Source: Balneola sp. (GTDB taxonomy: Bacteria; Bacteroidota; Rhodothermia; Balneolales; Balneolaceae). From it: DNA of 64,000 nt. The stretch covers positions 310,001 through 374,000 of the forward strand of contig NZQV01000010.1 in NCBI GenBank assembly GCA_002696035.1, given 5' to 3'. The translations under genes and the position numbers were made by a program. Under the pieces are notes generated by a model. That model was not told where the DNA came from. It saw only the letters and a program-made list of their open reading frames with translations, and did no database searches. Numbering within the stretch: the stretch's first letter is position 1; the number at the start of each line of letters is the position of its first letter. Positions 4,377 to 27,937 of the stretch are shown here, in pieces.

Positions 4377-5939
4377 ATGACAAAACAAACGTTCTTTATC
4401 ATCTTATTAATAATAGCTCCGGGTGTCATTTTTATTGGCTGCGGATCTTCTTCAAGCCAGGAGATTAGACCAATTGTAACCACCACGGCTGGTATTATTG
4501 AAGGAGAGCTTGATGATGGGATTTTCACGTTCAAAGGTATTCCTTATGCCAAAGCGGAAAGATTCATGCCTCCTCAAAAACCTGATTCTTGGGATGGTGT
4601 ACATGAAACTAAAGAATTTGGCCCAATCGCTATGCAGGTTAACAGCTGGTCGCCTGATTCAGTGATGAATGAGGATGAATTGTTTACTGCAAATGTATGG
4701 ACGCAGGGAATAAAGGATGACAAAAAGAGACCGGTTATGCTTTGGATTCATGGCGGTGGATTCAGAGTTGGAGCCAGCGACGATCCCATCACTGACGGTA
4801 AAATGCTGGCGGGAAACGGGGATGTTGTATTGGTATCAGTTAACCACCGGCTTAATATTCTCGGTTTTCTGGATCTATCTGATTTTGGAGAGAAGTATAC
4901 TCATTCTGCTAATGTAGGGATGCTGGATATTGTAGCAGCGCTTGAATGGGTTAATGAAAACATTGAGAATTTCGGCGGTGACCCAGATAACGTTACCATT
5001 TTCGGTGAATCGGGTGGAGGAGGAAAAGTAGGAACGTTAATGTCAATGCCTGGGGCAGAGGGTTTGTTTCACAAAGCCATCATCCAAAGCGGAACACTTA
5101 TCAATGTTATGACCAAGGAGAAATCAACAAAAGTTGGCCAGGCAGTGGTAGACATCTTAGGAATTAAAGAGAAAGAGGTGAGTAACCTCGATACTGTTTC
5201 GTACAAAAGACTTGTAGAAGCCGGTAATAAAGCACTTGCAAAATCAGTGGGGGTAAGAACACCCGGATCCAGCAAAATGTTTGGATTTGGTCCCGTGCCG
5301 GATGGTGTGAATTTACTACAACAACCATTTACTCCCGGGTTTTCCGATCTGTCAAAAGACATTCCATTATTAATTGGAACTACGTTCAATGAGTTGATGC
5401 GAACTGCTTACGGGGAAAAAGACCTGACCTTAGAACAGGCAAGGCAGAGATTAGAAAAACACTATGGCAGTAAAACGAACGAGTACATTGAGCTTTTCGG
5501 GAATGCGTACCCGGAGTATACTCCGCAGGACCTTGTATCCATTGACACCGTTTTTCGTCCTTATACCATCAGGACCGCTGATGCCCGCTCTGAAAAGAGA
5601 GACGCACCTGTTTATTCTTATATGCTGACCTGGAAAAGTCCGGTTGAGGACAGTACGAGAGGTTCATTCCACGGGCTCGATATTCCTTTGGCTTTTGATA
5701 ACATTGAACTCGGGAAACACTGGACTGGTACAGGAGATGATGCCTACGAGCTTGCCGATAAGATGAGTGTGGCATGGACCAATTTTGCGAAAACGGGGAA
5801 TCCAAATGTGGAAGACGAACTTCCTTCATGGGAACCCTATTCACGAGAAAATGGAGAAACCATGATCTTTGATAAGGAACCTAAGGTAGTAAACAACCAT
5901 GACAGGGAATTAATGCAGCTGGTTAAACCGATCAATTAG
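4377..5939 (+). CDS. Type-B carboxylesterase lipoprotein
   Basis: A 520-aa alpha/beta hydrolase of the carboxylesterase/cholinesterase family. A hydrophobic N-terminus ends in a lipobox (FIGC), so it is probably a lipoprotein. Family landmarks are FKGIPYAKA, the oxyanion segment WIHGGGFRVGA and GNVTIFGESGG-like nucleophile elbow. The putative triad is S212 in GESGGGG, E339 in TTFNELM and H432 in GSFHGLDIPLAF. The usual elbow is GESAG; here the alanine is replaced by glycine, inside a glycine-rich run followed by K. It lies 173 bases after the GH9 gene and 113 bases before another hydrolase, which fits removal of ester groups from a polysaccharide. Substrate unknown. Confidence 0.88.
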   Translation: MTKQTFFIILLIIAPGVIFIGCGSSSSQEIRPIVTTTAGIIEGELDDGIFTFKGIPYAKAERFMPPQKPDSWDGVHETKEFGPIAMQVNSWSPDSVMNEDELFTANVWTQGIKDDKKRPVMLWIHGGGFRVGASDDPITDGKMLAGNGDVVLVSVNHRLNILGFLDLSDFGEKYTHSANVGMLDIVAALEWVNENIENFGGDPDNVTIFGESGGGGKVGTLMSMPGAEGLFHKAIIQSGTLINVMTKEKSTKVGQAVVDILGIKEKEVSNLDTVSYKRLVEAGNKALAKSVGVRTPGSSKMFGFGPVPDGVNLLQQPFTPGFSDLSKDIPLLIGTTFNELMRTAYGEKDLTLEQARQRLEKHYGSKTNEYIELFGNAYPEYTPQDLVSIDTVFRPYTIRTADARSEKRDAPVYSYMLTWKSPVEDSTRGSFHGLDIPLAFDNIELGKHWTGTGDDAYELADKMSVAWTNFAKTGNPNVEDELPSWEPYSRENGETMIFDKEPKVVNNHDRELMQLVKPIN

Positions 5940-11843: not shown

Positions 11844-14510
11844 ATGCGATATTTCATTACCCTCATCTTCAGCCTCGTTGCTCTGTCGGCGTTTGCTCAA
11901 ACCGGTAAAATTCGTGGTGTGGTTACCGATGCTCAAACTGGTGAAACAATTATTGGCGCAAGCGTCATAATTGAGGGAACAACCAAAGGAAATGCCACCA
12001 ATGTTGACGGCGAATATATTATTCTGAATGTAGAGCCGGGAACTTATAATCTTGTATTTTCTTACATCGGATACCGACAAACTACGGTTCAGGAAGTCCG
12101 TGTTAGTATTGATCTTACTACCGAAATTAATGTAAAGCTTCAGCCCGAAGTTATGGAGGGTGAAGAGATCACCGTTGTAGCCGAGAAAGAGCTTATTAGA
12201 AAAGACGTCACAGCTAGTCTTTCGTCTATTTCAAGTGAACAGATCGAAGCTATTCCTGTTGAAAATTTTTCGGAAATTGTAGAATTACAAGCGGGTGTTG
12301 TGGATGGGCATTTCCGTGGTGGACGTACCGGTGAGGTTGGTTATTGGATTGATGGAGTTCCTGTTACAGACGTGTATAATGGTAGCTTGTCAGCCGGTGT
12401 TGAAAACAGTTCAGTAAAAGAAGTTCAGGTTGTGACCGGGGCATTCAATGCAGAATATGGGCAAGCCATGAGTGGTATCGTAAATATTGTCACTAAAGAT
12501 GGTAATAATAATTTCACCGGATCTGTAAACACCTTCGCCGGCGATTATGTATCCAACCGTTCTGACCTGTTCAGGGGCATTGATCAGATTAACCCTTTGG
12601 CTGTACGTAATATCGAAGCCAACATTGATGGTCCTATTATTAAGGACAATCTGTTTTTCTTTGTAAGCGGCCGGTATTTTGGAAATGATGGCTGGTTCTA
12701 CGGACGAGAAGTTTTTGATTATAACGATGTCGGGATCAATGAGCAGGGACAATTGGGGCTGCTGGATACCCTGGGATCCGGAGATTCCAGTCTGGTAAAC
12801 ATGAACCCGTATGAAAAGCTTAATGGTCAGTTTAAGTTGACCTGGCGTCCATTTTCCGGGATGAAAGTATCTGCAAATATTATTGGTGGAGGAGAAGAGT
12901 ATAAAAATTACAACCATGGAGCTCAGTTTATCCCTCAATTTACGCGCGACCAGTACAGCTTTAATTACAGTGCCTACCTCAAGGCCACACATTCTATATC
13001 TGAACGTACTTTTTATGATGTAAGTGTTTCAAATACGTATAATAAATATGAGTCATATTTGTTTGAGGATCCTTTTGATGATCGCTATCTGCCGAATGAT
13101 TATTCCGGCTTCCGTGCAAACAACTATACTTCCGGTTTCATAATTGGGGGGACCGATAATGGCCGAACCATGCGCGAAACCAACACCCTGATCGGGAAGT
13201 TTGACCTTACAAGTCAGGTAAACAGTTCCAACCAGATCAAAACCGGGGTTGAATACCGCTATCATAACTTGGTTTACAGAGATGAGACCTCGATTGTTAA
13301 TGATCCTCAGGAGGGCGTTGAACGTATTTTTGTGAACTCAGCGTACGATGTGAATCCGGTAGAAATGTCGGGATATATTCAGGATAAAGTGGAAGTAGGG
13401 AATCTGATCATCAACGCCGGAGTTCGCTTCGATTATTTTGATTCAAATTTCCGTGTTTTTAGAGACCCAACCGACCCAAATGTAGTTTTTGATGAGCTGC
13501 GTCCTGAAGACGAATCTCTTGTTTTTGAAGATTCTGAACCCACCTGGCAATTCAGTCCTCGCTTGGGGATTGCATTTCCGATCTCTGAAACCGGTGCCAT
13601 TCACTTTTCCTATGGTCACTTTTTCCAGATCCCGAATTTTAGCTTGTTGTACCAGAATCCCTTTTTCCGCCTTAGTGGAGGTTCCGGTCTTATCGGCTTG
13701 TTAGGGAATGCCAACCTTGATCCTCAGAAAACCATAAATGGTGAACTGGGATACAAACAGGAATTGAGCTCAAGCTCGGCTATCGAGATCACGGCGTTTT
13801 TCCGGGATATCAGAAACCTTGCTGGTACTGCAACAGATCCTATCGCAGTTCAAGGAACTTCCGTGCGATACGGTATCATCAGAAACTCCGACTTTGGTTT
13901 CATTAAAGGAGTTATTCTGGCATTAGATCAGAGCTTTGGTAACGGTATGTATTTGACCGCAGATTACACCTTCCAGATCGCAAAAGGGAATGCTTCTGAT
14001 CCGGCTCAGGCTTATAACGCAGCTGCCGCCAAAACCGAAATTGAGAAACGCATTGTGCCTTTAGACTGGGATCAGCTTCACACCTTAAATATTACCTCCA
14101 ATTATCGCTCGAGAGATGGCTGGGGTTTTGGAGCTATTTTTAATGCAGGCTCCGGTTTTCCATACACTCCCGATTATACTCTCAGAAGCGGTAGTGCACC
14201 TCCGTCCATCAATCCCCTGAACAGTCAGCGTCGTCCTGCTAAGTACAATATTGACCTTAACGTGACTAAAGATTTTCAGTTTGGAGAAGATCAGCGGCTA
14301 CAGGTTTATGCCAAGATCGACAACGTGCTTGATACCGGTAACGAGCGGGGCGTATTCAATGATACCGGTTCCGCAGAATATTCGCTCTATAGAAATGAAG
14401 ACCTGAAGACCTTCCGCGGCGATATCGACTTTTTGAATGCCAACTACAATCGACCTGATTTTTACAACGAACCGCGACGAGTGGTACTCGGTGTCCGATA
14501 CAATTTTTAA
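11844..14510 (+). CDS. TonB-dependent receptor, SusC-like, probable maltodextrin importer
   Basis: An 888-aa outer-membrane receptor. In order it has a signal peptide (to about residue 19), a carboxypeptidase-regulatory-like domain (GKIRGVVTDAQTGETIIGAS, about 20-105), a plug domain (VQVVTGAFNAEYGQAMSGIV, about 110-215) and a 22-strand-type barrel ending RRVVLGVRYNF with the terminal aromatic residue. Such receptors use TonB energy to import ligands too large for porins. It opens a locus of amylases and glycan-binding proteins, so starch oligosaccharides are the likely cargo. No SusD-like lipoprotein follows, which is unusual for a SusC-like protein. A LacI operator sits 44 bases upstream. 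Confidence 0.9.
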   Translation: MRYFITLIFSLVALSAFAQTGKIRGVVTDAQTGETIIGASVIIEGTTKGNATNVDGEYIILNVEPGTYNLVFSYIGYRQTTVQEVRVSIDLTTEINVKLQPEVMEGEEITVVAEKELIRKDVTASLSSISSEQIEAIPVENFSEIVELQAGVVDGHFRGGRTGEVGYWIDGVPVTDVYNGSLSAGVENSSVKEVQVVTGAFNAEYGQAMSGIVNIVTKDGNNNFTGSVNTFAGDYVSNRSDLFRGIDQINPLAVRNIEANIDGPIIKDNLFFFVSGRYFGNDGWFYGREVFDYNDVGINEQGQLGLLDTLGSGDSSLVNMNPYEKLNGQFKLTWRPFSGMKVSANIIGGGEEYKNYNHGAQFIPQFTRDQYSFNYSAYLKATHSISERTFYDVSVSNTYNKYESYLFEDPFDDRYLPNDYSGFRANNYTSGFIIGGTDNGRTMRETNTLIGKFDLTSQVNSSNQIKTGVEYRYHNLVYRDETSIVNDPQEGVERIFVNSAYDVNPVEMSGYIQDKVEVGNLIINAGVRFDYFDSNFRVFRDPTDPNVVFDELRPEDESLVFEDSEPTWQFSPRLGIAFPISETGAIHFSYGHFFQIPNFSLLYQNPFFRLSGGSGLIGLLGNANLDPQKTINGELGYKQELSSSSAIEITAFFRDIRNLAGTATDPIAVQGTSVRYGIIRNSDFGFIKGVILALDQSFGNGMYLTADYTFQIAKGNASDPAQAYNAAAAKTEIEKRIVPLDWDQLHTLNITSNYRSRDGWGFGAIFNAGSGFPYTPDYTLRSGSAPPSINPLNSQRRPAKYNIDLNVTKDFQFGEDQRLQVYAKIDNVLDTGNERGVFNDTGSAEYSLYRNEDLKTFRGDIDFLNANYNRPDFYNEPRRVVLGVRYNF

Positions 14511-14549
14511 TTGAATTCCAACATGTACCTCATTGACAGTTTTAGAAGT

Positions 14550-17500
14550 ATGAAAAAATTCATTCCAAAAATAATATCCGTATTTGTCCTCCTGTTTTTA
14601 GCTCAGAGCTACGCAGAAGCGCAACAAGTACCCCAATTTTTGCAAGATCCTCAATATCGTTCCAGCCGGGAGTACCGCAAAAGTGCTGAAGCTGACGGTA
14701 ACCGTGTTTGGATCACCTTTGAAAACACAGGATATCTGGCTGGTGTCGGTGAGATACGGGGACAATGGCCTCGTGGTTCTGAAGTCAACTACATTGGAGA
14801 CGTATCTCCTGTGGTTTCTTTGGAAATTCCAGTAGATACCAATAATGACGGGGTTGCTGATACTTTGGTACAACATGCTGTAACTACGCCCGGTGACCGA
14901 CAGGGACAAGGTGCGCGACCCGGACAAACCGAAGTTTGGGCTTTTGAGCCTATTCCCGGTTTTGCCAATATGGATGGAGAAAATGATCGTCCAGCTATCA
15001 GTATCGACGAAAATACATGGCCCGACCGCTGGCCCGATCAGCCTACCTGGGTTGCTCCGGACGGTACCGTGGAATGGAATGGTTTTTTTGGCCGTGGAAT
15101 TCAAAATGCCGATTTCGAAACTTATTTCTGGGCAGATGATCACAACGATAAATTCATGCAGGAAAATTATGGATTCAGACCTGACAGTACAGATCTGTCT
15201 CGTGGTGGACAAGGATTGGCCATGAGCGTCCGTGGTTTGCAGTGGAGCCAGTTCCTGGCGCAAGATGCGATGTTCTATATCTATGAGATCACCAATACCA
15301 GTACTACAACCTACCCGCGTGTTTCTGTAGGGTTGGTGGTTGGTACCGCCGCCGGTGAGCCTGCCAGCACTGGTTCCGGTGATACACAGGATGACCTGGC
15401 CTTCTTTGATCAGGGAAATAGAATTGTGTATTCATGGGATGCGAACGATCAGGTAGATGCTACTGGACAAGATGTGGGTTACGTTGGGTATGCCTTTATG
15501 GAAAGCCCCGGAGATCCAAATGACGGAATTGACAATGACGGAGATGGAGATCCCAATGAACTAAACGCAGATGGTTTCCCCTATACCGATCCGGCTTTAG
15601 TAGGTTCACAACAAAACTCACAATTCAATGCAAGTGACTTCCAGGCCAGAACCATAAATCCTGGAGATCCAATTATTCTGATTGACGAGGAAACCTACGA
15701 GCGGTCCGTTGTTTATATGGAAAATGGACCAATGACGGTTACTTCTCAGGGAATTCAGTATGATCTAACTCCCGGAATGACGCTTCAGGAAGCTAAGAAA
15801 ACCATTCAGGGACAAATTGATGCAATTACAGTTACCGAAAAGAATTTAATTGACGATGATCTGGATGGTATTATTGATGAGGATGCATCACTGCATAATG
15901 ATAGGAGATATCAGGAATTAGATGGTAATGTCGCTTATTATCCTTCCCTTTATTTTAAAAACTATGTAGGCTTAGCAGAAGCTGTTGGAGAAAACGGTAC
16001 TGCCACACTACAAGATTCGATCGAGTATGGGCTGCTTAATCCGATGGTAGATGAAAGTCCTTATGACGGCATAGATAATGACGGCGACTGGAATGCTTTA
16101 ACCGACGATGTAGGAGCAGATGGCGTTTCCGGAACCGGTGATGCGGGAGAAGGTGATGGGGTTCCAACAGTAGGAGAACCTAATTTTGAACTGCTTGATG
16201 TGGATGAAACCGATCAGGTTGGTCTTTCCAGTTTTTATTATTTCACCCCACCGGGAGCTGTTCGTCTGAACGAAGATCAGCAGGTATGGAATGCGATGTC
16301 TCCGGGTTTCTTCACGACGAATAATGAACTCTCTGCACAGCAACCAGATGGTGTTGATGGTGACTTTATCTTTAGTTCAGGCTATTTCCGGCTTGAGCCC
16401 GGTCAAACTCTGCGGTTCTCACTTGCCCTGGTATATGGAGAAGACCTTGCCAACATCACAAATAACGTACAGACCATTCAGGAGATCTACGACCGAAACT
16501 ACAACTTTGCCCGTCCACCGGAGAAACCAACCCTCAATGCAGCAGTAGGTGACGAGAAAGTAACCTTGTACTGGAACAGCATTGCCGAGGAAAGTGAAGA
16601 TCCTATTCTGGGGAAAGATTTTGAAGGCTACAAGCTCTTCAAGAGTACCGATCCCAACTTCCTGGATCCTGACAGAATTACCGATGCTTTTGGGAACGAC
16701 GCTTTGTTGGAGCCTTTAGCACAATTTGACTTAGATAATGGTATAAACGGACTGTGGAAACCAGCTGAAGACACTTCAAATTCAGTACAAGATCCGGCAT
16801 ATGTGTATAACCCTGATCTGGCTGACCGCGTGCGTGGCGTTCCGTTCTATTTAGGGGATGATACCGGCTTGCAGCATTCCTTTGTGGATACCAATGTGGT
16901 GAACGGACAAACCTATTACTACGCACTGGTAGCCTACGATCGTGGAAGCGTGGAATTCTATCCTGCCGAAAACAACTTTTCCGTAACGGTACGGGATGAC
17001 GGTTCAACCGTGACTGATGTGAATGTGGTGGAGGTAGAACCAAATACCCCGGTGCTTGGCTATCAGGCCGGTTCTGTGGTGGGTGAAGTTGAACACCCAA
17101 GTGGTTCTGCAACAGGAGAAGTGTTTGTAGAAGTGCTTGATCCTGTTTTCCTTCGGGAAGGTTCAAATTATCAGATTCGGTTTTCTGGTGATAATGAACT
17201 CCAGGCCTCCCGTTTTTCTGTAATAAGCGATGGAGATGTGATCGTATCCGATGCTTCATTGTCAGATGCACAATCAAATATATTTGATGGGATGAGATTG
17301 TCATTCCGGAATGATCAAACACGATTTAATCCGGATGCTTCTGGATGGGCCGACGAGGATACCAATAGGATCAATGTCGAGATCCGCTCCGGACAATTTG
17401 TAAATGAATCCAGGTGGAAATACTCCGGTACACCGGTACCATTTGACTACGAGATCGAATTCTCCGATCAGTTTGTAGCCACCTCTATTGACACCACCTT

Positions 17501-18182
17501 AGGTACAGGCGCAAATGCAATAGATGTGCCTGAAACTGATACTAAATTCAAGATCACAAATGTAACGACAGGTCAGGAAGTGCGTTTTGCATTTGATGAG
17601 TCTCTGGGAGATGATGATGGTGAATTAGGGGACTTTGAATACATCTACATTTACGATCAGGTTTCCAGTGATTCATTAGCGCCAACCTTTGAAGTCACCT
17701 TAGACTACATCAGTACAGGTCAGGGAAGGCAGCCAAGTGGAACATTGCCGGTAAGTGGCGATATTTATGAAATTAAGACCTACAAGGCATATGGCACTTC
17801 CGATTCCTACAGCTACTCAACCGAGTCTTCTGCTGTGGATGAAGAAACTGCACAGGAAATGCTCGATCAAATCAGAGTAGTACCCAATCCTTATGTAAGC
17901 GCAGCAAGCTGGGAGGGTAAACTTCCGCCAACCATTACAAGCGGCAGAGGTGAACGAAAAATTCAATTCCAAAACGTTCCTGATAACTCAACCATCCGCA
18001 TCTTTACCGTTCGTGGAGAGCTCGTGAGGGAACTGAACCACGACGATAGCATTGACCGTGGATATGTGGATTGGGATCTGCGCACCCGCGAAAACCTGGA
18101 TGTAGCCTATGGTATCTATTTCTATCACCTGGAGGCGCCCGGCGTTGGGACTAAAACCGGAAAAATTGCACTGATCAAATAA
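14550..18182 (+). CDS. Large exported surface protein with calcium-binding motifs and T9SS-like C-terminal domain
   Basis: A 1210-aa exported protein (signal peptide MKKFIPKIISVFVLLFLA...). It contains at least three aspartate-rich, thrombospondin type-3-like segments: DGIDNDGDGDPNELN (about residue 325), DDDLDGIIDED (about 436) and DGIDNDGDW (about 505). A fibronectin type III-like stretch begins near PPEKPTLNAAVGDEKV (about 653). The end (VVPNPYV ... YGIYFYHLEAPG ... GKIALIK) resembles type-A sorting domains, implying surface delivery through type IX secretion. The frame is open back to a TTG at 14511 and an ATG at 14523; I chose 14550 because it starts a normal signal peptide. It sits between the TonB receptor and the PorV-like gene, where SusD would be expected. 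I do not recognise the main body. Confidence 0.8.
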   Translation: MKKFIPKIISVFVLLFLAQSYAEAQQVPQFLQDPQYRSSREYRKSAEADGNRVWITFENTGYLAGVGEIRGQWPRGSEVNYIGDVSPVVSLEIPVDTNNDGVADTLVQHAVTTPGDRQGQGARPGQTEVWAFEPIPGFANMDGENDRPAISIDENTWPDRWPDQPTWVAPDGTVEWNGFFGRGIQNADFETYFWADDHNDKFMQENYGFRPDSTDLSRGGQGLAMSVRGLQWSQFLAQDAMFYIYEITNTSTTTYPRVSVGLVVGTAAGEPASTGSGDTQDDLAFFDQGNRIVYSWDANDQVDATGQDVGYVGYAFMESPGDPNDGIDNDGDGDPNELNADGFPYTDPALVGSQQNSQFNASDFQARTINPGDPIILIDEETYERSVVYMENGPMTVTSQGIQYDLTPGMTLQEAKKTIQGQIDAITVTEKNLIDDDLDGIIDEDASLHNDRRYQELDGNVAYYPSLYFKNYVGLAEAVGENGTATLQDSIEYGLLNPMVDESPYDGIDNDGDWNALTDDVGADGVSGTGDAGEGDGVPTVGEPNFELLDVDETDQVGLSSFYYFTPPGAVRLNEDQQVWNAMSPGFFTTNNELSAQQPDGVDGDFIFSSGYFRLEPGQTLRFSLALVYGEDLANITNNVQTIQEIYDRNYNFARPPEKPTLNAAVGDEKVTLYWNSIAEESEDPILGKDFEGYKLFKSTDPNFLDPDRITDAFGNDALLEPLAQFDLDNGINGLWKPAEDTSNSVQDPAYVYNPDLADRVRGVPFYLGDDTGLQHSFVDTNVVNGQTYYYALVAYDRGSVEFYPAENNFSVTVRDDGSTVTDVNVVEVEPNTPVLGYQAGSVVGEVEHPSGSATGEVFVEVLDPVFLREGSNYQIRFSGDNELQASRFSVISDGDVIVSDASLSDAQSNIFDGMRLSFRNDQTRFNPDASGWADEDTNRINVEIRSGQFVNESRWKYSGTPVPFDYEIEFSDQFVATSIDTTLGTGANAIDVPETDTKFKITNVTTGQEVRFAFDESLGDDDGELGDFEYIYIYDQVSSDSLAPTFEVTLDYISTGQGRQPSGTLPVSGDIYEIKTYKAYGTSDSYSYSTESSAVDEETAQEMLDQIRVVPNPYVSAASWEGKLPPTITSGRGERKIQFQNVPDNSTIRIFTVRGELVRELNHDDSIDRGYVDWDLRTRENLDVAYGIYFYHLEAPGVGTKTGKIALIK

Positions 18183-19222
18183 TGAAGAAACTAGCGATCA
18201 ATATGAAAAAGTCACTGAAGTACTGCTTGTTGTTGGCAGGCAGCCTGGTACTTTCCTTAAACGTACAAGCACAAGACAAAGTAGGGACATCCGGACCTGC
18301 ATTTCTGAGTATTACCTCAGGTGCGCGGGCATCGGCTATGGGAGGTGCTTATGTAGCCATCGCCAACGATGGGAGCTCCATGTTCTGGAATCCCGGCGGA
18401 ATGGCGCAGGTAGATAAATCGACGGTTACCTTCTCTAACATGAACTGGTTTTTGGATTCTCAGATACAGGATGCCTCGGTGATCTTCAATGGGGGAGATG
18501 CAGGTAATTTTGCACTGTCAGTCCGAGCCCTGAATTATGGAGAAATTGAGGTAACCACGATCGAAAACCCGGGTGGAACCGGCGAGATCTTTACCCCAAC
18601 TGATCTTTCTGTCGCAGTATCCTACTCCCGTTTTATCACGGACCAATTTTCGATCGGAGCCAATACGAAGTTTGTACAGCAGAAGATCTGGAATGAGGCA
18701 GCTACCGGCTTTGCCGTAGACCTTGGAATGCTTTATCAAACTAATTTCAAGAACCTTAGAATCGGGATGTCAATTACAAACTTTGGTTCCGATATGAGAA
18801 TGAATGGCGATGATCTTCGGCAGGCAATTGATATTGACGAAGGTCAAAATGGTAACAATGAACGACTGGAAGGTTACCTTGCAACAGATTCCTGGCCAAT
18901 GCCTTTACTGTTCAAAGTGGGTTTGGCCATCGATGCCATAAACACAGAAAACCACAGAGTGGAAGTAGCGGTTGACGCCAAGCACCCCAGCGATAACTCC
19001 GAAAGCATAGACATTGGGTTAGAGTATGGCTTTAATGACCTGGTTTTTTTCCGTGGAGGATATCGCAGTTTATTTTCCTCTCAGATCGAAGATCAGGGTT
19101 ATACTGCAGGCTTTGGTTTGAAATATGCGATCAGCGGAATTGCCGCAGAACTGGGAGTGGCTTACATGACACATGAATATTTACAAGATCCGCTACTCTG
19201 GACCTTAGAGATCGGATTTTAA
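18182..19222 (+). CDS. PorV/PorQ-like outer-membrane protein
   Basis: A 346-aa predicted outer-membrane barrel of the PorV/UPF0164 type. After the signal peptide comes the family's N-terminal signature, SGARASAMGGAYVAIANDGS followed by MFWNPGGMA. The body is rich in alternating aromatic/polar strands and ends with LEIGF, a terminal phenylalanine. PorV shuttles T9SS cargo to the attachment machinery, and related proteins are often encoded beside T9SS-sorted surface proteins. Its ATG overlaps the last base of the preceding stop, so the two are translationally coupled. A second ATG at 18203 is possible. It may be a dedicated escort for the two neighbouring sorted proteins (inference). Confidence 0.85.
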   Translation: MKKLAINMKKSLKYCLLLAGSLVLSLNVQAQDKVGTSGPAFLSITSGARASAMGGAYVAIANDGSSMFWNPGGMAQVDKSTVTFSNMNWFLDSQIQDASVIFNGGDAGNFALSVRALNYGEIEVTTIENPGGTGEIFTPTDLSVAVSYSRFITDQFSIGANTKFVQQKIWNEAATGFAVDLGMLYQTNFKNLRIGMSITNFGSDMRMNGDDLRQAIDIDEGQNGNNERLEGYLATDSWPMPLLFKVGLAIDAINTENHRVEVAVDAKHPSDNSESIDIGLEYGFNDLVFFRGGYRSLFSSQIEDQGYTAGFGLKYAISGIAAELGVAYMTHEYLQDPLLWTLEIGF

Positions 19223-19289: not shown

Positions 19290-21443
19290 ATGAAAAAGGT
19301 TACAACCTTATTCAGTGCCGTACTCTTCGCCCTTTTTGGGTTTGTAAGTGTACAAGCACAAGACGCCCTTATCATTTCTGAGTACATAGAAGGCTCAAGT
19401 AATAATAAGGCGATAGAGCTATTTAATGCTACCGGTGATACGGTTAGCTTAGCAAACTATCAGATTGCCCAATCTAATAATGGAGATGGATGGGAATATT
19501 ATCATACATTTCCAACAGGTGCAGAAATTGCGCCATTTGATACATGGGTAATGGTAACAAATCAAGTAGATTCAGCATTGTTTGATACTACATTAGCTGA
19601 TGAAGTGCTTGGCTACCCAAGTTTAGTACACCATAACGGTAATGACGCCAGAGCAATTATCTATATTTCTGGTGAAGACACTACCGTAACGGATGTATTT
19701 GGAGACCCGAATAGCGATGCGAAATGGGATGTTGCTGGTGTAAGTGAAGCCTCAGGTGAACATACACTCATTAGAAAAGCAAACATTTTCGAAGGTAACC
19801 CAACTGCATTAGCTTCTTTTGGAACTGATGCTGATGATTCTGAGTGGATTGTAAGAGACCAGAATGACTTTTCTGACCTTGGTAGCCACACCTTCGGTTA
19901 CGAAGTTACCTTCCAGGCAGATATGAACGACATGATCGATTCAGCTGCCTTTATCCCCGGTGAAGATTTTATCACCATTCCAGGTTCTATCAATGGATGG
20001 GATACAGCCGCTGATACACTTACCGATGCTGACGAAGATGGTATTTTCAACAAAACCCTTGTTCTGTCACCAGGCGATTATGCCTACAAATTCCACATTT
20101 ACTCCAATACCGGACGTATTACAGGTGGATATGAGAACAATCAGCCAACCAGCAACACAAACCGTAACATTACGGTTTCTGCTGATGATACCCTCGAAGC
20201 ACAACAACCAAGTTTCGATTACACCGACTTGAATGATGCTATCTTTGGTGAGATTCAGATCAACTTCAGCGTTAACATGGGTGTTCAAACGCTCAATGGA
20301 AACTTCGATCCGGAATCAGATGCTGTTACTGTAGCAGGATCTATGAACGGTTGGAATACAACCTCTGATACTCTTACTCTTTCCAGAGTTGACGATGTTT
20401 ATCAAGGTGTTGTAACCATTGAAACTTCTGCTATTCCTGCAGACTTTGCATTCAAATACATCATTAGCCGCGAAGACGGATCGCCAGTTTACGAAAGTGG
20501 AAGCGACCGCCCGGTTTCAGTTACTGCTGATGATCTTGATTCAGAAGAAGACGCTTATATTGTAGATTCTTCAGATGAAACTGCATTCTTTAGTAATGTT
20601 ACTTTTGATGACATTTTCCAATCTGACGCTTCTGTAGTATTTGAAGTTGATTTACGTCCTGCTTATTACCTATTAGCGGATAGTGCATCTCTTCCTGCTG
20701 ACGTTCAGTCTGGAACAGGCGCTGATTCTACTATCACCTTCGTGTTTGCCAACGGTCCACTAGTTACCAAAGACGGTAGCTGGGAAACTTGGGGTATCAC
20801 TGAAAGTGAAGCAGAAGCAGGTGGTTACCTCTTGAATGACAACGGAGAAAACGGTGATGAAGTTGCCGGTGACTCTGTATTCTCAATCACTATGACTTAC
20901 GGTGAAGGCGATGCCAAAACCGGTCAGTTCAAATTTGGTGTAAATGGTTATGATAACGAGAATATCTCCGGAACTAACCACGAAGCCACCCTATTTGACG
21001 GCGCGAGAGTTCCTCTTGTATTCGGAGCCATTCCTTTATCTGATGGTACTGTAAATGATGATCTTTATGATCCTTATATCCAGGTTACCGAAGAAGGTGC
21101 GGTTGTTGTACGACGCGGCGGATCCAGTGATGACGATGTTGTCGTATCCAACGAAAACGAAGAGCTGGCAAGTACTCCAGAAGAGTTCAAACTTAGCCAG
21201 AACTATCCAAACCCATTTAACCCAACAACGAACATTAACTTCACCTTACCACAGGCAACTAATGTATCGTTAACGGTTTACAATGTTCTTGGACAGCAAG
21301 TAGCACGTCTTGTTAACGGACGACTGGCCGCAGGTCAGCATTCCGTACAGTTCGATGCTTCCAATCTTGCTTCAGGAATGTACTTATACCGCATTGAAGC
21401 GGGTACATTCACCCAGAACAAGAAAATGATGTTGATCAAGTAG
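19290..21443 (+). CDS. T9SS-sorted surface glycan-binding protein with lamin-tail domain and SusE-like repeats
   Basis: A 717-aa exported protein with a clear SD (TAGGAG). After the signal peptide, a lamin-tail domain occupies about residues 25-150 ([20 protein letters not shown]). Three beta-sandwich repeats follow, starting near residues 203, 320 and 446. The first two carry GSINGWD and GSMNGWN, the kind of motif seen in CBM20/CBM48 and SusE/F starch-binding modules. The C-terminus is a full type-A sorting domain ([18 protein letters not shown] ... [19 protein letters not shown]). I infer a cell-surface starch-binding protein doing the job SusE/F do in Bacteroides. No catalytic motif is visible. 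Confidence 0.85.
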
Positions 21444-21522
21444 ATTGATCTAACTTTCTAATAATATTTTCGCAGGTACTTTGACCGGTGTCTGCGTATT
21501 CTCTTTTAACTCACTCAGAAAA

Positions 21523-22524
21523 GTGCCAGCAACGATATACGATATTGCGAAAAAAGCAGGGGTAAGCATTGCCACGGTATCCCGTGTGTTCAATAACAGT
21601 GCAAACGTTTCGGATAAAGCCAAAAAGAAAGTATTGGCGGTAGCTGACGAAATGGGATATCACCCACAGGCTTTTGCCCAGGGACTCGCCAGCCGTAAAA
21701 GTAATACGGTAATGGTTGTTGTGCCCGTTATTTCTAATTATTTCTTTATGGAAGTATTGGGAGGCATTCAGGATAAGTTGAGTCAACAGAATTACGAACT
21801 CAGTATTTTTAACATTTCTCCAAACAAAGACATCCAGGAGCAAGTAGAGCACGTTCTTAAACGTCGATGGGCTGAAGGATACCTCTTCATTTCCATACAC
21901 ATGGAAGAAGAAAAGTGGGAGAATCTTGAAAAATACAATGTTCCCATTACGCTTATTGATGAATATTTCCAGGGTTTCGATTCCGTTAGTGTGGATAATG
22001 CACAGGGGGCATACCGGGCTACCAAACATTTCCTGGAACAAGGATATGCACGGGTGGCTATGCTGTCTGCTCTGGAATCTTCCAAACCGATCAAGGATCG
22101 TCTTAAAGGCTATAAAAAAGCACTGAATGAACATGAAATTCCCTTCGATAATACCCTGGTGGTGAAGGGCGATAGCATGAACCGGGATGGATTTACGGAG
22201 CGGGCAGGCTACGAAGCTATGATCAAAATGCTGGAAATGAACCCTATGCCCGAGGCCTGCTTATGTGCCTCTGATATTCAGGCTGTGGGGGCACTAAAAG
22301 CTATGCAAGACACTGGCAAAAAGCTTCCCATTATTGGCTACGACGATATCGAACTGGCAGAATACATGGGACTTTCCACCATACGTCAACCCATGCGCGA
22401 TATGGGGTTTTTTGCTACTCAAAACCTGCTCGACCGAATGAATAATTCGGAGAAACCAATTTCACAAACCATTTATTCTCCTGAGCTTACTATTCGTTCT
22501 TCCACATCGGTGAACGGGGTTTAG
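21523..22524 (+). CDS. LacI-family transcriptional regulator of the starch locus
   Basis: A 333-aa regulator. The DNA-binding helix-turn-helix is at the N-terminus (ATIYDIAKKAGVSIATVSRV), followed by the hinge (YHPQAFAQGLASRKS) and a periplasmic-binding-protein-like effector domain (IGYDDIELAEYMGLSTIRQP). The open frame begins at a TTG at 21481, but LacI proteins start a few residues before the recognition helix, so I chose the GTG at 21523. It lies between the surface-binding genes and the first amylase. The likely target is the palindrome at 11787, and a maltodextrin or related sugar is the likely effector; both are inferences. Confidence 0.9.
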   Translation: MPATIYDIAKKAGVSIATVSRVFNNSANVSDKAKKKVLAVADEMGYHPQAFAQGLASRKSNTVMVVVPVISNYFFMEVLGGIQDKLSQQNYELSIFNISPNKDIQEQVEHVLKRRWAEGYLFISIHMEEEKWENLEKYNVPITLIDEYFQGFDSVSVDNAQGAYRATKHFLEQGYARVAMLSALESSKPIKDRLKGYKKALNEHEIPFDNTLVVKGDSMNRDGFTERAGYEAMIKMLEMNPMPEACLCASDIQAVGALKAMQDTGKKLPIIGYDDIELAEYMGLSTIRQPMRDMGFFATQNLLDRMNNSEKPISQTIYSPELTIRSSTSVNGV

Positions 22525-22551: not shown

Positions 22552-25494
22552 ATGAAGTCTTTCAAATTTCTCAGTTTCATTGCTCTTCTTCTCTTTAGCG
22601 GAAATACCTTTGCGCAGGTAGTAACTTTTCAACCAGATTTCCCTACGGAGTATGATTCTCTCACGGTTATTTTTGATGCTACTGAAGGAAATGGAGATCT
22701 CGAAGATTTTGATGGGGATGTATATCTCTATACCGGTGCTATCACTACAAACAGTACTGATGATTCCAACTGGCTCCATGTCCGTCCTTCAGGAAATAAC
22801 GGCTGGTCAAGCTATCCGGAAGAATTGAAGGCAACCAAGCTTGATGATAACAAGTGGGGCTTCACCTTTAAACCCGATCTCCGAAATTTCTTTGATATCA
22901 CCGATGGAGGAGAATCCATTGAGAAAGTAGCCATGCTATTTAGAGGGACAAGAACCGGTTCAGGAGATCCTGTTGCAGTGGGAAGAGGAGATGGCGGCAG
23001 CGATATTTTTGTCGAAATGTTTGAGGATGCGGTCACTGCCCGATTGTTGAATCCTGGTGAAAGTACGAGTTTACTGACCGTAGGTGATACATTGAATATC
23101 AGTGGGGTAGGAAATTCTCCGGCTGAAACTTTGGAATTAACGCTAACGATCAATGGAAATAACGTTGCCTCTTCAACCGATTCTGATCAGCTGGAATATG
23201 AATTCATCCCTGAGGAAACCGGAAATTATATCATTGAACTTACAGCATCCGACGGACAGGGAAATACGGATATAGCGCATTCCAAAGTGGTTGTAATCGA
23301 TGGCGTGGAGCTTGCTTCCCGTCCGCAAGGATTACGAGACGGCATCATTTATAATAGTGATGGGAGTGTTTCATTATCTCTGTTTGCTCCCGGTAAAGAA
23401 ACTGCTTTTGTGATCGGAGATTTCAGCAACTGGCAGGCGGATCACGATTACCTGATGAAAATGGATTCGCTGAATGCAGATAGCGTATGGTTCTGGATCA
23501 ACCTGGATGCAGGCGAATTTCCGCAGGGACAGTATTCGGGATTTCAATATCTGGTGGATGAACAAATTCGAATCTCAGATCCATATTCTGAGCTGATCCT
23601 GGATCCTTACAACGATCAGTATATTTCTGAGGCTACCTTCCCGGATCTCCCCGAATATCCTTCAAACCAAACCAGTGGGTGGGTTACGCTTGTTCATCCC
23701 GGAAAAGCGGATTATGACTGGCAAGTCACCGATTTCGAGAAGCCGGATAAAGACGAATTGATCATTTACGAACTACTGATCCGTGATTTCATCGAAGCCC
23801 GAAACTTCCAGACGCTAACGGATACGCTGGATTATCTGGAGAATTTAGGGGTGAATGCCATCGAGTTGATGCCAGTGAGTGAATTTGATGGAAATCTTAG
23901 CTGGGGCTACAACCCAAATCATCACCTGGCACTGGATAAAGCCTATGGAACACCGGAAGCCTTCAAACAATTTGTGGATGAGGCGCATCAGCGTGGAATG
24001 GCTGTGATCCTGGATGTGGTGATGAATCACGCTTCGGATGTGAATCCTTTCTTCCAGCTCTACGGGAATGATGACGACTATTATTTCAACTCCCAGGCGC
24101 GTCACGCTTACAATGTTTTCAACGATTTCGACCACTCTTATTCGGGCACGAGGTACTACAACCAACGGATGATCGAGCACTGGATCAACGAGTACAAGAT
24201 CGATGGATTCAGATGGGATTTGACCAAAGGATTCACCCAGAATTGTGCTGGTGATGGCGGAAGCTGCACCAACAATTATCAGCAAGATCGTGTTGATGTC
24301 CTGAAAAAGTATGCCGATTGGCAGTGGGAAGAAGATCCTGAGTTCTATGTGATCTTTGAACATCTCGGAACCGAAAGTGAAGAAGCTGAATGGGCCAACT
24401 ACAGAGTGCATGAAGGCAAAGGAATTATGCTTTGGGGCAAAATGACCGGCCCGTACAGCGAGGCTGCCATGGGATATCACGATGGCGGAAAATCCAATTT
24501 GTATGGTGTACTTTCTGAATCCCGTTCTTCATTCCGTCAGCGCCATTTAGTAGGCTATATGGAAAGCCATGACGAGCAATGGATGATGTTCAAGAACCTG
24601 AATTACGGGAATTCTTCCGGAGATTATGATATCACAGAATTAGGCACGGCTTTGAACAGACAAAAACAGGCCGGTGCGTTTTTCTTCCTTCTTCCAGGAC
24701 CTAAAATGATATGGCAATTTGGTGAATTGGGTTATGGCGGCGGTCCTGATGAATGCCTGAAACCGGGTGGAGGTAATGGAGACTGTCTAGCTTCAGATCC
24801 CAGCCGAACCGGACAAAAACCCATTCGCTGGAATTATTATCAGGATGAAGGTCGCAAGAATTTGTACAAAGTCTGGAGCTACATCATCAATCTTAGAAAA
24901 AGCAGCCCGGCTTTCACAAATTCCCAGGAATATGATTTCGATAACCTGAGCGGCACCATGAAATTCTTCACACTTCAGCATGAAGACAGCGATGTTTTGG
25001 TGGTTGGTAATTTCGGAGTGACAGAAACCTCTATAACAGCACCATTTCCATCAACAGGAGAGTGGCATGATTATTTTGGAGGAAGTTCTGTGGTAACCAC
25101 GGAAAGTTCATCTCATCAGTTAACGCTTCAGCCTGGTGAGTTTAAGATATTTACGACCCGTGAGTTTGAAACTCCTGCAGAAGACAGTCTTTTTACATCG
25201 AATGAAAATGTAGCTGACACTGAAATGCCTTCCAATTACCGATTGATGCAAAACTATCCCAATCCTTTTAACCCGGGTACCGTGATCAGTTATCAGTTGG
25301 CAGATAACAGTGATGTTACTTTAAAGGTGTTTGATATGCTGGGCAGGGAGGTAGCTATGCTGGTGAATGAGCGGAAATCAGCGGGGAGTTATCAGGTGAA
25401 TTTTGATGCTTCTAAGCTTAGTAGTGGAATGTATATCTATCGATTGCAGGCCGGTGGGAAAGTTTTTACCGAGAAAATGATGCTAATTAAGTAA
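22552..25494 (+). CDS. GH13 alpha-amylase with type IX secretion sorting domain
   Basis: A 980-aa exported enzyme. A signal peptide and N-terminal beta domains (about 20-255) precede an E-set/CBM48-like module (AFVIGDFSNWQADHDYLMKM, about 265-370) and a GH13 barrel. The four conserved regions are DVVMNH (I), DGFRWDLTK with nucleophile D556 (II), VIFEHL with acid/base E603 (III), and MESHDEQ with transition-state D674 (IV). The C-terminus is a type-A sorting domain ([18 protein letters not shown] ... MYIYRLQAGG), so the enzyme should be displayed on the cell surface or released. It probably makes the first cuts in starch for TonB-receptor import. The gene starts 27 bases after the LacI-type regulator. 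Confidence 0.93.
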   Translation: MKSFKFLSFIALLLFSGNTFAQVVTFQPDFPTEYDSLTVIFDATEGNGDLEDFDGDVYLYTGAITTNSTDDSNWLHVRPSGNNGWSSYPEELKATKLDDNKWGFTFKPDLRNFFDITDGGESIEKVAMLFRGTRTGSGDPVAVGRGDGGSDIFVEMFEDAVTARLLNPGESTSLLTVGDTLNISGVGNSPAETLELTLTINGNNVASSTDSDQLEYEFIPEETGNYIIELTASDGQGNTDIAHSKVVVIDGVELASRPQGLRDGIIYNSDGSVSLSLFAPGKETAFVIGDFSNWQADHDYLMKMDSLNADSVWFWINLDAGEFPQGQYSGFQYLVDEQIRISDPYSELILDPYNDQYISEATFPDLPEYPSNQTSGWVTLVHPGKADYDWQVTDFEKPDKDELIIYELLIRDFIEARNFQTLTDTLDYLENLGVNAIELMPVSEFDGNLSWGYNPNHHLALDKAYGTPEAFKQFVDEAHQRGMAVILDVVMNHASDVNPFFQLYGNDDDYYFNSQARHAYNVFNDFDHSYSGTRYYNQRMIEHWINEYKIDGFRWDLTKGFTQNCAGDGGSCTNNYQQDRVDVLKKYADWQWEEDPEFYVIFEHLGTESEEAEWANYRVHEGKGIMLWGKMTGPYSEAAMGYHDGGKSNLYGVLSESRSSFRQRHLVGYMESHDEQWMMFKNLNYGNSSGDYDITELGTALNRQKQAGAFFFLLPGPKMIWQFGELGYGGGPDECLKPGGGNGDCLASDPSRTGQKPIRWNYYQDEGRKNLYKVWSYIINLRKSSPAFTNSQEYDFDNLSGTMKFFTLQHEDSDVLVVGNFGVTETSITAPFPSTGEWHDYFGGSSVVTTESSSHQLTLQPGEFKIFTTREFETPAEDSLFTSNENVADTEMPSNYRLMQNYPNPFNPGTVISYQLADNSDVTLKVFDMLGREVAMLVNERKSAGSYQVNFDASKLSSGMYIYRLQAGGKVFTEKMMLIK

Positions 25495-25567: not shown

Positions 25568-27937
25568 GTGTCAAATAAAGCTTTAAAATTCATTTCAATT
25601 GCACTGGCTTTGATGCTTACCGGTTGCTCTTCATCCATCGAGGCTCCGGAAGATTCGCAAATTGTTGGTTTGGCTACACCCATCACTTTGGAGTTTGAGG
25701 AAACCGAGATCATCTCGGCTGACTATTTTATCGCTCCCTCACGTATTGATTCTGTCACTGCTCCGGCCGGACTTCAGGCAAGTTTGTCACCCGATAAAGA
25801 AATCATAACGCTAAGCGGTTCACTCCAGTCGCCCCTTGATGTGCTTAACATCTGGGCTGGTGGCTACGCCTATGATTTTCTGCTGAAAAGGTCGTCCAAG
25901 CAAGAGATCACCATGACGTTTGAACAAGGTTCAGGAAGCGTGAATTCGGTGAAAATGAAAGGGGAGATGAATAACTGGAATCCTAATGCCACGGTGTTTG
26001 AAAAGAATGGTGATATCTGGGAAGCCACCATGTTAGTGAATGAAGGAGTTTATCAATACGTACTGGTGATTGATGGACAAGAAATGCCCGATCCTGACAA
26101 CCCAAATACGGTTTCCAACGGGATGGGAGGCACAAATTCAGTACTTACCGTAGGAGATGCCGATGCTGAAAAACCTGCACTGGTCACTTATGATCATTCT
26201 GGTCCTACTGTATTCTTGAAAACAGAATTCCCTGAAAACACGATCGTATTCTGGGAGAATTATGAGCTGGAAACACGCCAGGAAGAGAATTTTGTGAGCT
26301 TCGAACTTCCTGCCAATGCATCGTACATGCAGCGTTCACATGTAAGAGCCTGGACGTTTGGCGATAACGGAAAGCTATCGAACGATGTGCTCATTCCGCT
26401 TCAAAACGGACAAATTGTGGAGCGCAGTGAACAGCTTACTCGCCACGACTACCATAACTGGAATATGTACTTTGTATTGATAGACCGGTTCAGGGATGGA
26501 AATCCGGCTAATACGCAGAAAGTAGACGACCCTGACATTCACCCCAAAGCCAATTATTATGGTGGCGATTTTGCCGGTATCACCCAAAAGATTCAGGATG
26601 GATATTTTGAGGATATTGGTGTGAATACACTCTGGCTTTCACCGATCACACAAAACCCGGAAACTGCTTACGGCCTTTGGGATAAAGGCGGTGTGACTAC
26701 TAAATTTTCCGGATATCATGGTTACTGGCCGGTGTCATCTTCAAAACTGGATCACCGCTTTGGAACCGAGGAAGAATTCCGCAAGCTGCTGGACATAGCT
26801 CATGAAAACAATATGAGTGTGATTCTCGATTATGTGGCTAATCACGTACACGAAGATCATCCCGTTTATCAGAATAATCCCGATTGGGCGACTGATCTAT
26901 ATCTGCCGGATGGTACCATGAATACCGAATTGTGGGATGAACAACGCCTCACTACCTGGTTCGATACTTTTATGCCTACGCTTGATTTTTCCCGTGAGGA
27001 AGTCATCGAAACCATGACGGATTCTGCTTTGTATTGGGTGAAAGAATTCGATCTGGATGGATTTCGCCATGATGCCACCAAACACATCCAGCTTGAATTT
27101 TGGAGAACCCTGACCCGTAAGATCAAGGACTCGGTGACCATTCCCACCGGAAAACGTGTTTTTCAGATCGGGGAAACCTATGGGAGTCGTGAGTTGGTAG
27201 CGAGCTACATCAACTCCGGGATGCTGGATTCACAGTTTGATTTCAGTATGTACGATGCTGGCCTGAATACCTTTGGGCAGGGAAATTCTTTTGAAGGTCT
27301 GCATATACAACTTCAGGAAAGTTTTAATTATTACGGATATCATAATCTGATGGGCTACATATCCGGAAATCATGACAAAACAAGATTTATTACGCTTACA
27401 AGTGGTGAAGTGGCTTGGGATGAAGACGGCAAACTGGCCGGCTGGACCAGAGAAATTGAAGATCCACAGGCTTTTGCCTATGATCGGCTTTCAATGTTTC
27501 ATGCTTTCAATCAAACGATTCCGGGAATCCCTGTAACCTACATGGGCGATGAATATGGACAGCCCGGAGCCAACGATCCCGATAACCGTAGATGGATGGA
27601 ATTTGAAGAGTCAGAGCTGACTGGAAATGAGATTCAGAACAGAAATATCTACAGAAAATTGACTGAACTTCGTCGTTCAGAGATGCCGCTTTTATACGGT
27701 GATTTTCAATTTCACACTACTACCGAAAACACACTGGCTTATTCGCGTTCCTATTTTGAAGATCAGGCGATCGTAGTGTTCAATAAGTCAGGGCAAACTG
27801 AAGAAATTGAAATAGACCTGCGCGAAGAATTCGATTATGTAGATCTGGAAGCTCAATTTGGCAATGAGTTTCGCGTAGAAAACGGAAGTTTATATGTAAC
27901 CCTTCCATCCAACAAATTTGAAATTTTGACCTTGTGA
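25568..27937 (+). CDS. GH13 lipoprotein, cyclomaltodextrinase/neopullulanase-like
   Basis: A 789-aa enzyme starting at GTG, with a lipobox (MLTGCSSS), so membrane-anchored. An N-terminal domain is followed by a CBM48/E-set-like module (VKMKGEMNNWNPNATVFEKN). The GH13 regions are DYVANH (I), DGFRHDATK with nucleophile D502 (II), QIGETYG with acid/base E536 (III), and SGNHDKTR with D603 (IV). The sequence around region II and the domain order resemble enzymes that open cyclodextrins or debranch short maltodextrins. It probably works in the periplasm or on the cell face on oligosaccharides already cut by the sorted amylase. A C-terminal beta domain ends at LPSNKFEILTL. The exact bond specificity is not readable. 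Confidence 0.9.
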   Translation: MSNKALKFISIALALMLTGCSSSIEAPEDSQIVGLATPITLEFEETEIISADYFIAPSRIDSVTAPAGLQASLSPDKEIITLSGSLQSPLDVLNIWAGGYAYDFLLKRSSKQEITMTFEQGSGSVNSVKMKGEMNNWNPNATVFEKNGDIWEATMLVNEGVYQYVLVIDGQEMPDPDNPNTVSNGMGGTNSVLTVGDADAEKPALVTYDHSGPTVFLKTEFPENTIVFWENYELETRQEENFVSFELPANASYMQRSHVRAWTFGDNGKLSNDVLIPLQNGQIVERSEQLTRHDYHNWNMYFVLIDRFRDGNPANTQKVDDPDIHPKANYYGGDFAGITQKIQDGYFEDIGVNTLWLSPITQNPETAYGLWDKGGVTTKFSGYHGYWPVSSSKLDHRFGTEEEFRKLLDIAHENNMSVILDYVANHVHEDHPVYQNNPDWATDLYLPDGTMNTELWDEQRLTTWFDTFMPTLDFSREEVIETMTDSALYWVKEFDLDGFRHDATKHIQLEFWRTLTRKIKDSVTIPTGKRVFQIGETYGSRELVASYINSGMLDSQFDFSMYDAGLNTFGQGNSFEGLHIQLQESFNYYGYHNLMGYISGNHDKTRFITLTSGEVAWDEDGKLAGWTREIEDPQAFAYDRLSMFHAFNQTIPGIPVTYMGDEYGQPGANDPDNRRWMEFEESELTGNEIQNRNIYRKLTELRRSEMPLLYGDFQFHTTTENTLAYSRSYFEDQAIVVFNKSGQTEEIEIDLREEFDYVDLEAQFGNEFRVENGSLYVTLPSNKFEILTL

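Follow-up and report, generated by a model that had tools for sequence, protein, structure and literature searches.

In the 64,000-nucleotide stretch of a Balneola sp. contig analysed here (the window), a 1210-residue protein of an unnamed family is encoded between a TonB-dependent receptor and an outer-membrane barrel of the PorV/PorQ family. We propose that this window protein is probably a SusD-like glycan-capture subunit, exported by the type IX secretion system (T9SS) and kept beside the receptor by a PorV-like carrier of its own, the three genes forming one outer-membrane uptake module. An earlier note on the same sequence had suggested a new class of receptor-associated surface glycan protein. 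The linkage to the receptor and a beta-supersandwich core uphold this suggestion, and the binding of glycans would follow from that fold and from the neighbouring genes. The three genes are:

11844-14510, forward: TonB-dependent receptor, 888 residues, with CarboxypepD_reg, Plug and barrel domains (PF00593 101 bits, PF13715 72 bits)
14550-18182, forward: window protein, 1210 residues, unnamed family
18182-19222, forward: PorV/PorQ-family outer-membrane barrel, 346 residues, the proposed dedicated carrier (NF033709 228 bits, cut-off 90)

The reading frame of the window protein is open from 14511 to 18182. Its ATG at 14550 follows the end of the receptor gene by 39 bases, and its stop codon overlaps the start of the PorV-like gene by one base (TAATG), in agreement with the placement described in the earlier note. 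The barrel falls below the equivalog cut-offs of both PorV (100.8 of 250) and PorQ (115.1 of 220).

Relatives of the window protein are widespread. Matches were found in 43 of the 57 genomes of the order, its own included, and in 165 of 296 genomes of the phylum at E values up to 1e-3, some of them weak. A scan of named genome contigs gave at least 530 confirmed relatives, the best 80 of which define 79 loci, a choice that biases these named loci toward full-length relatives. Their record titles include Rhodothermia, Balneola, Ignavibacteria, Melioribacteraceae, Calditrichota, KSB1, Neomarinimicrobiota and Gemmatimonadetes, together with WOR-3, Stahlbacteria, Cloacimonetes, Fermentibacteria, Chlorobiales and, once, Deltaproteobacteria; we take most of these phyla to belong to the Fibrobacteres-Chlorobi-Bacteroidetes (FCB) group. 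Three loci (L102, L156 and L169) were dropped as copies of contigs among the G loci, leaving a named set of 76. The order-level set consists of 57 regions, a subset of all matches, picked before their neighbours were seen.

Homologs that mostly lack a TonB receptor neighbour would speak against a receptor-associated protein, and the opposite was found. The next upstream gene is a receptor in all 56 order-level regions with room for one, and the next downstream gene is PorV-like in 48 of 48. Among the named loci, 67 have room upstream and 64 of these have the receptor, which lies next to the protein gene in 59 and one gene further, behind the PorV gene, in 5; a PorV-like gene adjoins the protein, on either side, in 62 of 64 loci with room. 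Some misses are explained by a tandem second copy in front (L125, L170) or by a gene split into two open reading frames, with the PorV gene after the second (L108). As background, 19 receptor matches over the cut-off were counted in the whole 3.97-Mb genome of the window. Of the 91 complete triads, 87 run receptor-protein-PorV and 4 receptor-PorV-protein, with median gaps of 6 and 8 bases.

The three genes also diverge jointly across these 91 triads, with Mantel r values of 0.93, 0.90 and 0.89 for the gene pairs; receptor and protein share the same nearest neighbour in 62 of them, protein and PorV in 56. For each of the three genes, the nearest relative lay in the same genome in none of the 46 order-level triads; therefore, a genome can harbour several triads that are old paralogs of one another and whose partners seem to stay together. 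The triad PorV proteins form a clade apart from the canonical PorV (FastTree, support 90), in which one other PorV-like gene of the genome of the window is nested.

Variants of the arrangement were also observed. The surface protein occurs in two tandem or near-tandem copies at L064, L078, L125 and L170. At L184 (G000:C6:92000-111000), a receptor-PorV pair without a full protein lies near T9SS-tailed proteins, an NHL-repeat protein and a type I phosphodiesterase; one of the neighbouring T9SS tails resembles that of the window protein, and this is possibly a related module with another partner. Triads were also found in records titled Chlorobiales and Thermochlorobacteriaceae (L126, L174), and the L126 genome contains SprA (1363 bits). 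A passage of PMC12611786 describes Chlorobiota as devoid of SusCD and SprA; binning or deep-branching members could account for these records.

Predicted fold of the window protein

An AlphaFold2 model built from 100 alignment rows reached a predicted local distance difference test score (pLDDT) of 88.5 and a predicted template modelling score (pTM) of 0.79. It resolved an Asp-rich insert that had been left unresolved in a model from 46 rows (pLDDT 72). The regions of the protein are:

14550-14624, forward: Sec-type signal peptide, 25 residues, no cysteine (peptide and cleavage site judged by eye)
14649-15521, forward: beta-supersandwich, first part (mature residues 9-299), with conserved WPxxWP, WNGxFG and ADxE motifs
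15522-16223, forward: Asp-rich insert (mature 300-533), with DNDGDG (303), DDDLDG (410) and DNDGD (484)
16224-16514, forward: beta-supersandwich, second part (mature 534-630)
16515-17048, forward: FN3 domain (mature 631-808), with a low-confidence loop at 715-726 (structure match Z 9.6-9.8)
17049-17834, forward: beta-rich region, no family assigned (mature 809-1070), mostly confident in the model
17835-18179, forward: T9SS-type C-terminal domain (mature 1071-1185)

The core, whose fold the earlier note did not recognise, is in both AlphaFold2 models a beta-supersandwich (a name used in the Pfam entry of GH94), best known from carbohydrate enzymes. This assignment rests on the re-comparison of Foldseek candidates with VIA-align; the whole-chain Foldseek lists were dominated by FN3-like and complement chains, and the relatives of the core were not at the top. 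The best match was dextran dextrinase 9ju0 (Z 19.7 over 257 residues at 3.0 A), followed by glucodextranase 1ug9 (Z 18.1) and laminaribiose and cellobiose phosphorylases (Z about 17); supersandwich glycosidases, those of glycoside hydrolase (GH) family 94 and others, filled ranks 1-18, with Z 17.0-19.7 over 236-272 residues and a root-mean-square deviation of 3.0-4.0. The weaker first model gave the same best matches, plus cyclic glucan synthase and an arabinanase. The Trp residues of the WPxxWP and WNGxFG motifs (W132, W136, W151) are invariant in the 100 rows. The core fold is thus shared with the GH94 phosphorylases, glucodextranase and dextran dextrinase at Z 17-20, but at only 7-11% identity, and the window protein differs from these enzymes by the lack of a helical catalytic domain in the model and by its long Asp-rich insert.

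Profile searches assigned little of this. No Pfam or NCBIfam family covers the body of the protein, and the FN3-like module seen in the earlier note was missed by Pfam, although residues of about 630-807 match FN3 structures. At E values up to 0.1, CHU_C was the sole Pfam entry and no SusD-type domain was among the matches. For the window protein and 39 relatives from many phyla, the models matched at E up to 0.01 were of the tail type (CHU_C, FlgD, PorZ, PorU sortase and TIGR04183), apart from a phage tail-tube model in one member. A sequence search against solved structures returned three matches, all to EspB (E 0.3-0.35), which we take to be chance.

The three DxDxDG-type segments reported earlier were recovered as D-x-[DN]-x-[DN]-G at mature residues 71, 303 and 410, where 2000 shuffles of the protein's own residues gave a mean of 0.33 (P = 0.0055 for three or more). 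The second segment alone is fixed in the family: D303 and D305 never vary over the 100 rows, and 99 rows carry D307. In the third, which is partly conserved, 78 rows have D410 and the remaining 22 a gap; D71 of the first is found in 38 rows, and that segment is not conserved. The three Asp of the DNDGD motif show a single deviating residue across the 100 rows. The insert likely binds calcium.

Alternatively, the protein could be an enzyme of the cell surface (a glycoside hydrolase, a lyase or an epimerase) that acts next to the receptor instead of capturing glycans for it. The supersandwich is common to polysaccharide enzymes (GH174 Z 13.3, PL26 Z 12.5, the putative aldose 1-epimerase 3nre Z 12.7), and E165, R203, W207, E528 and D530 are invariant in the 100 rows. 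Yet the predicted secondary structure of the model contains no helical catalytic domain or helical barrel, no GH or other carbohydrate-active enzyme (CAZyme) family matched the window protein or its 39 relatives, and separate GH genes already adjoin the triad; we therefore consider an enzyme unlikely.

C-terminal domain and export

The sorting-like tail pointed out in the earlier note is weak by sequence and becomes clearer by profile and structure. The PorZ model matched it at 23.7 bits (E 1.4e-5, cut-off 260) and CHU_C at E 0.06, while a profile of T9SS tails from the window and the order-level loci aligned with an hhalign probability of 95.5%. Its structure matches PorZ (5m11, Z 11.3) and PorU (6za2, Z 9.7). 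All 100 rows carry P-[ND]-P-Y and 99 of them G-x-Y, and the Ig-like C-terminal domain (CTD) fold with what we take to be the PxP and G-x-Y motifs is that of T9SS type A cargo. Six of 40 family members match TIGR04183 at E up to 0.01 (best E 0.0038). The genome encodes SprA (1533 bits), as do 22 of 24 sampled host genomes, the two exceptions being assemblies of 1.2 and 0.7 Mb. The window protein would leave the cell by SprA-dependent T9SS secretion. Short weak matches to SprA model positions of about 590-690 were also seen (G000:C15:19423-19578; 17 of 24 sampled genomes; open reading frames of 566-1241 residues).

The resemblance to PorZ raises another explanation, namely a PorZ-kind factor for T9SS assembly or attachment, with the PorV-like barrel as its PorQ and a receptor that only delivers or regulates. 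The PorZ model was matched in 13 of 40 members, the tail superimposes on PorZ as given above and the partner gene is of the PorV/PorQ family. On the other hand, the body differs from that of PorZ, which is made of propellers, several paralogs per genome stand in differing sugar contexts, the linkage to the receptor is nearly absolute, and the genome has a separate PorV gene, followed by a T9SS-tailed gene that looks like PorU. We regard this explanation as quite improbable.

Glycan-gene context

The genes that follow the triad are:

19290-21443, forward: T9SS-sorted protein, 717 residues, with LTD and CBM48 domains
21481-22524, forward: LacI-family regulator
22552-25494, forward: GH13 alpha-amylase-type enzyme with a T9SS tail
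25568-27937, forward: GH13 alpha-amylase-type enzyme
28092-29462, forward: GH13 enzyme
29704-31248, forward: major facilitator superfamily (MFS) transporter (MFS_1 and MFS/sugar transport models)

Three of the genome's GH13 genes (ten matches, about seven genes) lie here, and the locus looks like an alpha-glucan one. Further upstream lie a GH9-type cellulase with a CelD_N domain (1675-4203) and a carboxylesterase (4377-5939). The second triad of the genome (L034, G000:C14:854000-870000; the triad itself at about 859500-866000) has as neighbours a GH2 and two T9SS-tailed proteins, one a GH16 and the other with CBM4_9, and is therefore perhaps a beta-glucan locus. Other triads adjoin GH94 with LacI, GHL10 with a GntR-type sensor, ABC solute-binding proteins or GH26.

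Sugar enzymes, regulators or binding proteins were found at 27 of 49 order-level loci, compared to 1 of 20 random 16-kb regions (P 9e-5), and at 30 of 56 named loci (P 1.2e-4 against the same regions, a control from genomes of the order and not from the other phyla). The test used ten query sets; the seven loci from which queries came, L036 (gene lengths like those of L035) and loci with fewer than 600 non-triad codons were excluded. A gene for a PpiC-type rotamase was present at 33 of 49 order-level and 17 of 56 named loci and in none of the 20 random regions (P 7e-8 and 0.004). It often precedes the receptor or follows the PorV gene (L034, L045, L112, L123, L133 and others), and may be a folding helper of the barrels or of the cargo.

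A third alternative is that the protein has no role in import and serves as an adhesin or scaffold, keeping cells or secreted enzymes attached to insoluble glycans. This would fit the FN3 and beta domains and the neighbouring T9SS-sorted proteins with carbohydrate-binding domains, but the joint divergence with the TonB receptor over 91 triads exceeds what a scaffold needs, which makes it very doubtful.

Proposed module and known counterparts

In the capture-subunit model, the TonB receptor, the surface protein and the PorV-like barrel would form a single three-protein complex. The surface protein would be exported by Sec and then by the T9SS through SprA, and its C-terminal domain would be caught and kept by the adjacent barrel, much as PorQ binds PorZ or SprF binds SprB, a retained tail that would keep the protein at the outer membrane without a lipid anchor. 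The supersandwich, stiffened by calcium loops and spaced by the FN3 and beta domains, would cover or flank the mouth of the receptor and pass glycans to it for TonB-driven import, here presumably alpha-glucans and others in the paralogous triads.

Several observations weigh against this model. The receptor is missing at L104 and the PorV neighbour at L122, and triad pairs within a genome (n = 23) correlate at only 0.23-0.59. The tail lies below the curated type A and B CTD cut-offs, with neither PF18962 nor TIGR04183 matched in the window protein. The fold alone is no proof of glycan binding, because the supersandwich also occurs in proteins with no known glycan role, YidC (Z 12.0) and amine oxidase (Z 10.3). 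No sugar marker was found at 48 of 105 triad loci with the small set used, the markers were picked after some triad loci had been seen, and the random regions come from only six genomes of the order. Finally, SusD is encoded in 56 of the 57 order genomes, and the module is therefore no simple stand-in for SusD.

The earlier note had placed the protein in the SusD position, which holds as an analogy: the protein may work like a SusD, but the receptor is not a SusC, TIGR04056 scoring 74.5 bits (cut-off 368) over residues 22-146 only, and the protein is not a SusD. That identity was rejected because the protein has no SusD domain and no convincing lipobox and is mostly beta. The SusD family was absent from all 40 members at E up to 0.01, and neither the mature part nor the signal peptide of the window protein contains a cysteine for a lipobox; the lipobox pattern in 2 of 99 relatives, both times in the hydrophobic stretch before an A-Q site, was judged by eye to be chance.

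SusD genes are fewer in genomes with a relative of the window protein (E below 1e-20), in comparisons that ignore kinship, with medians of 3 and 5.5 in the order (n = 39 and 18, P 0.0035), 2 and 8 in the family (n = 19 and 15, P 0.0006) and 2 and 7 in the genus (n = 6 and 4, P 0.13); genomes with weak matches (G017, G028, G035 and G053) were counted among the 18 without. The case for a replacement of SusD is not rested on these counts, given the uncorrected kinship and the near-universal SusD.

On a wider scale, and more tentatively, the triads might represent a second widespread architecture of TonB-dependent glycan import, beside or partly replacing SusCD, in which a T9SS cargo bound to a PorV-family barrel of its own, and not a lipoprotein, serves as the capture lid, with carrier, lid and transporter in one complex and glycan-specific paralogs. 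A TonB receptor with a surface partner is a known principle; a partner built from T9SS parts would be new. Among the titles and abstracts listed by searches of the open-access PMC literature, preprints excluded, none describes the triad, which is a weak absence, and neither do passages of PMC12578637, PMC12611786, PMC5317091 and PMC7029141. Nor did the searches of open-access papers yield a description of a PorZ-like tail, a dedicated PorV-family barrel and a TonB receptor as one unit. The relatives span many phyla, mostly uncultured, whose polysaccharide uptake is poorly known. If the model is correct, it would provide a testable alternative to SusCD, link T9SS export to TonB-dependent import, give PorV-like genes a role beyond the core T9SS and offer an annotation marker for glycan loci in Neomarinimicrobiota, Ignavibacteria, Calditrichota, KSB1 and Gemmatimonadota.

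The closest known counterpart is SusC/SusD (RagA/RagB), which likewise couples a TonB-type receptor to a co-encoded partner. There too GH13, a LacI-type regulator and a transporter are neighbours, and a genome carries several paralogous systems. The triad differs in a receptor below the SusC cut-off, a partner that is mostly beta, whereas SusD is helical, with a T9SS-like tail in place of a lipobox, and an additional PorV-like gene. BtuG is a propeller. BtuB/BtuG, for vitamin B12 in Bacteroides, likewise joins a TonB-dependent transporter to a surface partner other than SusD, although BtuG is a lipoprotein, unlike the window protein (by a title cited in PMC12578637). For the carrier, the abstract of PMC5562754 states that PorV carries cargo and that PorU:PorV and PorQ:PorZ subcomplexes exist. 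According to parts of PMC10202324, PorZ retains its CTD, to which PorQ binds, and genes of type B cargo mostly cluster with those of PorP/SprF carriers; in excerpts of PMC12635249 and PMC12618676, type B substrates remain on dedicated carriers and type A substrates use the general PorV. PorZ-PorQ and type B cargo-PorP/SprF thus offer, in these portions of PMC10202324, PMC12618676 and PMC12635249, the precedent of a T9SS-exported protein on a cognate PorV-like barrel, often encoded adjacently. The triad departs from it in its PorZ- or type A-like tail, as type A CTDs are reported in the excerpt of PMC12618676 to be all recognised by the general PorV, and in having a TonB receptor as part of the unit.

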